Of a DNA stretch of 43,343 nucleotides, positions 28,547 through 28,705 are shown piece after piece (position 1 is the first letter of the stretch; the number at the start of each line of letters is the position of its first letter). This DNA is from Bacteroidota bacterium. Lineage in GTDB: Bacteria; Bacteroidota; Rhodothermia; Rhodothermales; JANQRZ01. The DNA lies in contig JBCDKT010000032.1 of the NCBI GenBank assembly GCA_038746285.1, positions 1 through 43,343 on the forward strand, given 5' to 3'. Made by a program: the position numbers and the translations under genes. Under the pieces are notes generated by a model. The model was not told the DNA's origin. It saw nothing but the letters and a program-made list of their open reading frames with translations, and ran no database searches.

Positions 28547-28705
28547 CGCGCCCGCTCCGGGCGGGGCGAATGCCGACGGAACTACATGTTAACCCTCAGG
28601 TCGCCGGTTCGAGTCCGGCCGGATGCTTCGGCGTCCGTAGCTCAGCGGGTAGAGCAGAGGATAATGTTTCGTCCCAACCTCGTCGTCCCGCCCGGACTGG
28701 GCGCG
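28547..28705 (+). ncRNA. yrlA: YrlA-type Y RNA (unit 5) with complete permuted tRNA-like module
   Basis: The outer stem is long: 14 bp (28556-28569 with 28683-28696, one G-U), extended by GCGCCC/GGGCGC after a 2x2 loop. Then come loop ATGCC, helix GACGGA (28575-28580) with TTCGTC (28668-28673), the bulged ACT (28581-28583) and ACAT/ATGT. The head is a tRNA read from the middle: CCTC (28594-28597), five-base variable loop, T arm GCCGG-TTCGAGT-CCGGC (28603-28619), acceptor-like CGGATGC (28620-28626), UUCG cap, GCGTCCG (28631-28637), TA, D arm GCTC-AGCGGGTA-GAGC (28640-28655), A, GAGG (28657-28660). This is the known architecture of bacterial YrlA. It ends about 37 bases before the rtcB ATG. Confidence 0.9.

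Follow-up and report, generated by a model that had tools for sequence, protein, structure and literature searches.

The stretch of DNA analysed here (the window) comprises 43,343 nucleotides of a Rhodothermales contig and contains a Ro60 locus with an array of Y RNA units. The gene for RtcR, a CARF-domain sigma-54 activator (24591-26189, minus strand; NF038308 RNA_repair_RtcR, 802 bits against a cut-off of 650; PF06956), is divergent from a plus-strand operon in which the gene for a 523-amino-acid Ro60 (TROVE/vWA) protein (26391-27962; PF25045 vWA_Ro60, 61 bits; TROVE, 29.6 bits) is followed by five Y units (28142-28691), the gene for the RNA ligase RtcB (28742-30241; PF01139, 331.6 bits) and the gene for the RNA 3′-phosphate cyclase RtcA (30584-31615; TIGR03399, 380.7 bits). 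The combination of Ro60, Y RNAs, RtcB and RtcA with a divergent RtcR is a known RNA-repair operon (PMC7790460). A putative sigma-54-like promoter, TTGGCACGGGGCTTGGCA, is located upstream of Ro60 (26331-26348, plus strand) and has two mismatches to the consensus, with matches to such a pattern being no rarer than chance in the window. A TGGCACG element is found ca. 50-70 bases upstream of Ro60 in four related genomes (G001, G013, G039 and G306) and in Methylosinus.

Several minor features accompany the operon. Two GC-rich palindromes, CCCCGCGAAGGCGGGG and TTCCCGCCTGCGCGGGAA, which resemble dispersed repeats, lie between Ro60 and Y unit 1 (28018-28090). The longest RtcB open frame (28586-30241) starts inside Y unit 5, so that automatic annotation could misplace the rtcB start, which is likely at 28742. 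Between rtcB and rtcA, there is a short frame (30334-30510), perhaps a gene remnant, that ends in a SEC-C-like motif of 10 residues.

All five Y units are on the plus strand. Units 1 (28142-28227) and 2 (28251-28331) belong to repeat family D1 and contain no tRNA parts. Unit 1 is weakly similar to YrlB (RF02565; 20.6 bits, below the cut-off of 97), an RNA whose Ro stem carries no tRNA parts; unit 5 belongs to another type. Unit 4 (28451-28535) is likewise devoid of tRNA parts and matches the YrlA model RF02553 (31.7 bits) via its Ro stem only. Unit 3 (28338-28440; RF02553, 38.3 bits) carries a reduced mimic composed of GGTA, a closed hairpin, a T arm and another closed hairpin, with no D stem. 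This layout, with GGTA placed just after the Ro motif, is common to G001, G013 and G039, and unit 3 looks like a reduced form of the D-loop-opened mimics described below. The third Y unit of an enterobacterial contig (L164:924-1037) is similar to it.

Unit 5 (28561-28691), the last of the array, matches RF02553 over the full model length with 67.7 bits (E 3e-15), 1.3 bits less than the gathering cut-off (69 bits), a curated threshold and not a biological criterion. With the same model, the orthologue in the sister genome G001 scores 70.2 bits and the enterobacterial YrlA 70.9 bits. The ends of unit 5 are predicted to pair into an outer stem (28561-28569/28683-28691) and an inner Ro-binding stem (28575-28582/28666-28673), and the sequence indicates the bipartite Ro-binding stem with a conserved ACTACA bulge side by which YrlA RNAs are recognised. 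The T arm, a sealed acceptor-like stem and the D arm follow each other inside the Ro stem in the order typical of YrlA. From the 5′ side, the tRNA parts are the 3′ strand of the anticodon stem, CCCTC (28593-28597); a 5-nt variable loop, AGGTC (28598-28602); the T arm, GCCGG-TTCGAGT-CCGGC (28603-28619); a 7-bp acceptor stem (28620-28637) formed by CGGATGC (28620-28626) and GCGTCCG (28631-28637) around a UUCG loop (28627-28630); a stretch (28638-28656) made of the connector TA (28638-28639), the D arm GCTC-AGCGGGTA-GAGC (28640-28655) and the connector A (28656); and, finally, the 5′ strand of the anticodon stem, GAGGA (28657-28661). The acceptor stem is paired at 7/7 positions (one pair being G-U), the T stem at 5/5, the D stem at 4/4 and the anticodon stem at 4/5, the sole departure from tRNA being A31 opposite C39. 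Judging from the sequence, the nucleotides for tRNA tertiary contacts are also in place (U8/A14, G15/C48, G18-G19 facing U55-C56, G53-C61 and U54/A58), and the T loop TTCGAGT and the D loop AGCGGGTA would suit pseudouridine and dihydrouridine formation, respectively.

The initial annotation had read positions 28588-28663 as a tRNA cloverleaf in permuted order within a YrlA RNA, with the acceptor stem sealed by UUCG, the anticodon arm opened and joined to the Ro-binding stem, and the D-loop GG positioned to meet the TTC of the T loop. This reading holds throughout. The whole cloverleaf is contained in 28593-28661, with each piece where it had been placed; the UUCG loop directly joins the two acceptor strands; the opened anticodon arm leads into the Ro stem (28561-28582/28666-28691), both helices of which covary; the predicted loop contact has its nucleotides in place; and the YrlA assignment agrees with the full-length RF02553 match.

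The outer helix of unit 5 can be extended to 23-nt arms (28547-28569 and 28683-28705; 28547-28705 as a whole) that are 87% complementary. It is possible that these inverted arms constitute a processing site that splits the Y RNA from rtcB mRNA. A similar helix is visible in G001.

No tRNA was found by ARAGORN in the linear window. A tRNA finder run on the permuted string had been named in the initial annotation as a check, and when the 76 bases of 28588-28663 were read with circular topology, ARAGORN called a tRNA that extends from base 43 round to base 42. All 76 rotations of a near-identical circle were likewise called a tRNA, as against 0 of 2000 shuffles. The cloverleaf of the unit 5 core has an energy of -31.2 kcal/mol versus a minimum of -31.4 kcal/mol; for the host's own class I tRNAs, the gap between cloverleaf and minimum ranges from 0 to 7.4 kcal/mol. 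The 135-nt unit 5 sequence folds 2.7 standard deviations below dinucleotide shuffles, and in the minimum-energy fold of the full unit, some bases of the T and D arms take other partners, which for the core amounts to a difference of 0.2 kcal/mol. A recent origin of unit 5 from a specific host tRNA was tested for and not found, the best identity being 74% (Thr-TGT and Lys-TTT), within the range observed between different real tRNAs (0.68-0.98, median 0.78).

For comparative analysis, Ro60 loci were gathered from the order and the phylum, together with named plasmid and phage records. A Pfam TROVE search of the order gave few Ro60 genes, and the window's own Ro60 protein proved to be a better query. 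We parsed 27 related Y units with the T arm and the D motif as anchors for fixed offsets. Their acceptor strands were paired at 176 of 189 positions, versus 91.3 ± 6.9 when partners were shuffled between units (0 of 20000 shuffles reached as high a value), and their anticodon strands at 89 of 135 positions, versus 51.8 ± 5.7 with shuffled partners. Tandem pairs of real tRNAs parsed in the same way mostly had 1 to 5 of 7 acceptor pairs, the better-paired exceptions including stray Y units present in that set and a repeated tRNA. In an alignment of 13 sequences from Bacteroidota, Alphaproteobacteria and one enterobacterial contig, 88.4% of cells were paired, and the covariation score was 0.370, versus at most 0.129 when partners were slid by 1-3 columns. 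The acceptor stem was paired in 100% of cells, with two-sided changes in six of its seven pairs; such changes affected all four pairs of the anticodon stem and nine pairs of Ro-stem helices 1 and 2, which were paired in 80% and 77% of cells. The T stem does not provide independent evidence, since T arms served to find many of the units, and the D stem is invariant in this alignment and uninformative on covariation. Among named relatives, the nearest is JANQRZ010000018.1, assembled from a Rhodothermales metagenome (Ro60 92% identical). Between the window and G001, whose Ro60 shows the same 92% identity, CGGATGC/GCGTCCG is replaced in the acceptor stem by CAGATGC/GCATCTG, and GAGG/CCTC in the anticodon stem by GTG/CAC. 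Both stems are thus altered on both sides, with pairing kept. On the basis of sequence, order of parts, pairing, covariation and operon context, we conclude with great confidence that unit 5 is a YrlA-type Y RNA with a permuted tRNA mimic. It carries tRNA-mimicking Y RNAs into Rhodothermales.

With this permuted order, unit 5 follows the usual layout of YrlA RNAs, which is already published and not special to this unit. The crystal structure of YrlA (6CU1) was superposed on tRNAs by ARTEMIS as a circular permutation (PMC11472068), and, according to a review, DusA and TruB modify a tRNA-like domain of YrlA, and Rsr is held by a stem of the RNA (PMC8394870), in line with the statement of the initial annotation that tRNA-modifying enzymes recognise the tRNA-like part of YrlA. 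The earlier interpretation was therefore right, and the arrangement was already known. The YrlA of enterobacteria (L164:800-918) presents the same succession of Ro stem, T arm, acceptor-like hairpin, UA, D arm and Ro stem in the same Ro60-Y-RtcB surroundings, with a covariance-model score on a par with that of unit 5. It has a 6-bp acceptor stem with a UUA triloop, whereas unit 5 has the full 7 bp and a UUCG tetraloop, retains a 4-bp anticodon stem, the 5-nt variable loop and the 1-nt connector before that stem, and stands last in a five-unit array. Unit 5 is an unusually complete tRNA mimic, among the most tRNA-complete examples of this comparison, and lends itself to structural work.

Circularly permuted tRNA genes of red and green algae and of archaea also place the 3′ half before the 5′ half and join the acceptor strands by a short piece, with algal junctions that fall at 37/38 or within the D loop (PMC3978253). 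These genes mature into working tRNAs, whereas unit 5 has no discriminator, CCA or anticodon, and its Ro stem replaces the splice junction. RNA is likewise known to imitate the elbow and acceptor helix of tRNA in the tRNA-like domain of tmRNA and in viral tRNA-like structures. However, the acceptor end is open and chargeable in tmRNA and sealed in unit 5, and the permutation seen in the viral mimics of TYMV and BMV is, unlike that of unit 5, non-circular (PMC11472068).

Relatives carry Y arrays that exceed that of the window in size and diversity, with at least eight units in G013. We surveyed 45 listed units in nine array stretches, where classes were assigned by eye and a few automatic labels were wrong. 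In one recurrent layout, opened in the D loop, GGTA-GAGC adjoins the 5′ Ro stem and is followed by an anticodon hairpin with a closed end, AGGTC and the T arm; next come the acceptor hairpin, likewise closed, TA-GCTC-AG and the 3′ Ro stem. Y units of this class are located at L075:2298-2427, L076 (ca. 2140-2265), L145:6176-6300, L166:4996-5120, L167:5047-5178 (Rhizobium etli) and L192:704-827. Units of this kind with an anticodon arm closed by a short loop are found in G013, G039, G306, Methylosinus, Rhizobium/Shinella and Novosphingobium, and the class is present in both Bacteroidota and Alphaproteobacteria. When the R. etli unit was aligned with its Rhizobium, Shinella and Novosphingobium orthologues (eight alphaproteobacterial sequences), 92.9% of cells were paired, with two-sided changes in seven pairs, a number reached by 2 of 500 shuffles. 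When the phylum was searched for D-loop-opened units by an exact sequence pattern (ACTACA...GGTAGAGC), 17 matches were retrieved, of which only the one in G306 was a Y unit by eye. The Rfam YrlA model misses much of this diversity, with unit 5 just under the cut-off and D-loop-opened units at 27-33 bits where listed. In other Rhodothermales, most RF02553 matches of 25-40 bits fall on real tRNA genes in tandem, and since this range overlaps that of the D-loop-opened units, the score alone cannot separate the two.

Other mimics appear to be opened elsewhere. A Leu-like mimic (L075:2750-2887) is opened beside the variable region, with the D arm and a UUCG-closed anticodon arm downstream of the acceptor. 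Apparent class II (Leu-type) mimics with long variable arms lie inside Y units at L158 (ca. 3900-4020, plus strand), L152 (ca. 4240-4360, minus strand) and L162 (ca. 4080-4200, minus strand). A Y unit in L151 (3640-3760, minus strand) contains a D arm, a complete anticodon arm (loop TTTGTAA, Thr-like), a variable loop, a T arm and a UUCG hairpin in place of the acceptor stem; with its complete anticodon loop, this mimic is possibly opened at the acceptor/D junction. Among the 45 units, the mimics keep the T loop and usually the D-loop GG and a sealed acceptor hairpin, whatever the opening; nearly all of them have lost the anticodon or bear a short loop instead. The chances seem to us even that Y-RNA arrays hold tRNA mimics that differ in their opening point, namely the anticodon loop, the D loop, the variable region and possibly the acceptor/D junction, besides reduced forms. 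If this is true, Ro60 particles would be tuned by swapping permutations of one fold. A literature search outside the original reports on YrlA (Chen 2014, Wang 2018, Sim and Wolin 2018) retrieved no description of these opening classes, and we do not claim that they are new. The comparison across distant bacteria at the same operon position matters more than unit 5 itself.

The ends of Y RNAs pair into a stem held by Ro60. By analogy, the ends of unit 5 would form a stem to be held by Ro60, with the tRNA mimic as the effector end, made by circular permutation so that the opened anticodon arm would run on into the Ro stem. With UUCG closing the acceptor end, the module offers no 3′ end for charging, trimming or degradation. 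The module may fold into a tRNA-like L presenting the D/T-loop elbow and the acceptor helix, and proteins that read these features, such as modification enzymes, PNPase or other tRNA-handling enzymes, could in this way be brought to Ro60. The host genome encodes PNPase and one Dus-family gene. Broken tRNAs sensed by RtcR would trigger production of unit 5 RNA together with RtcB and RtcA. A sealed acceptor and an anticodon that is opened or replaced, combined with retention of the elbow, lead us to infer an elbow/acceptor handle tethered to Ro60. That the elbow and the sealed acceptor helix are mostly constant while the opening points vary points to the elbow as the recognised feature. Against a purely elbow-only role speaks the anticodon-like loop of 6-7 nt kept in the L151 and L158 mimics. 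The RF02553 score just short of the cut-off and the altered T- and D-arm pairing in the minimum-energy fold of the full unit also count against the overall explanation. Such an elbow tether is, in our judgement, a proposition as apt to fail as to hold for the unit 5 module; as the best explanation of the whole, a YrlA-type Y RNA whose permuted tRNA mimic tethers elbow-reading proteins to Ro60 is somewhat probable. The natural mimic variants allow a search for the YrlA partner without recourse to designed ones.

Instead of serving as a tether, the tRNA module could compete with real tRNAs for a tRNA-cutting nuclease or another tRNA-binding factor during the damage that induces the operon. Fragments of tRNA induce the operon, and the authors who reported this mention that the tRNA-like domain of YrlA might act as a competitive inhibitor (PMC7790460); an anticodon-like loop is kept in some array members. 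However, unit 5 has no anticodon loop, and the closed anticodon arms of relatives mostly have loops of 4-6 nt, so that an anticodon nuclease has nothing to recognise; moreover, Salmonella YrlA is not cut by an SOS-induced nuclease (PMC7790460), and a decoy would not need a covalent link to the Ro stem. We therefore regard a decoy function as unlikely.

If unit 5 were a permuted tRNA gene, RtcB would circularise the open anticodon ends, and RNase P and tRNase Z would cut the sealed acceptor loop to yield a working tRNA, as in red algae. The exact order of 3′ half, loop and 5′ half, the RNA ligase encoded in the operon and the circular ARAGORN call all fit this scheme, as does the maturation of algal permuted pre-tRNAs via circles with junctions that include 37/38 and the D loop (PMC3978253). 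It is nevertheless very improbable: the UUCG loop has neither discriminator nor CCA; the joined open ends would give TAGTTAA, with A and not U at position 33; these ends differ between the window (GTTAA) and G001 (GGTCCATAA), while the stems covary; the host (4.08 Mb in 134 contigs) already has 42 tRNA genes; and distant bacteria, too, have this module on a Ro stem. Chance or debris, in the form of a tRNA pseudogene or of the T arm of one tRNA beside the D arm of another, might be suspected from the weak YrlA matches elsewhere in the order that turned out to be mostly tandem tRNA genes. With 7/7 acceptor pairs here versus mostly 1-5/7 in tandem tRNAs, together with the Ro stem, the conserved place in the operon and the two-sided compensatory changes, which already refute this reading, an accidental origin is scarcely credible.

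Further tRNAs were seen near Ro60 genes. In L153 (3726-4338), three complete ordinary-looking tRNAs (Met, Arg and Lys) are neighbours of a YrlA-like unit in the vicinity of a divergent Ro60 gene. In Myxococcus phage Mx1 (L168:4630-5480), a phage Ro60 gene has a Y-like stem nearby, together with a 71-nt tRNA-Gly. Within the window, a small SRP RNA of the Bacteroidales type (98.1 bits) is present downstream of the operon (36229-36336, plus strand).
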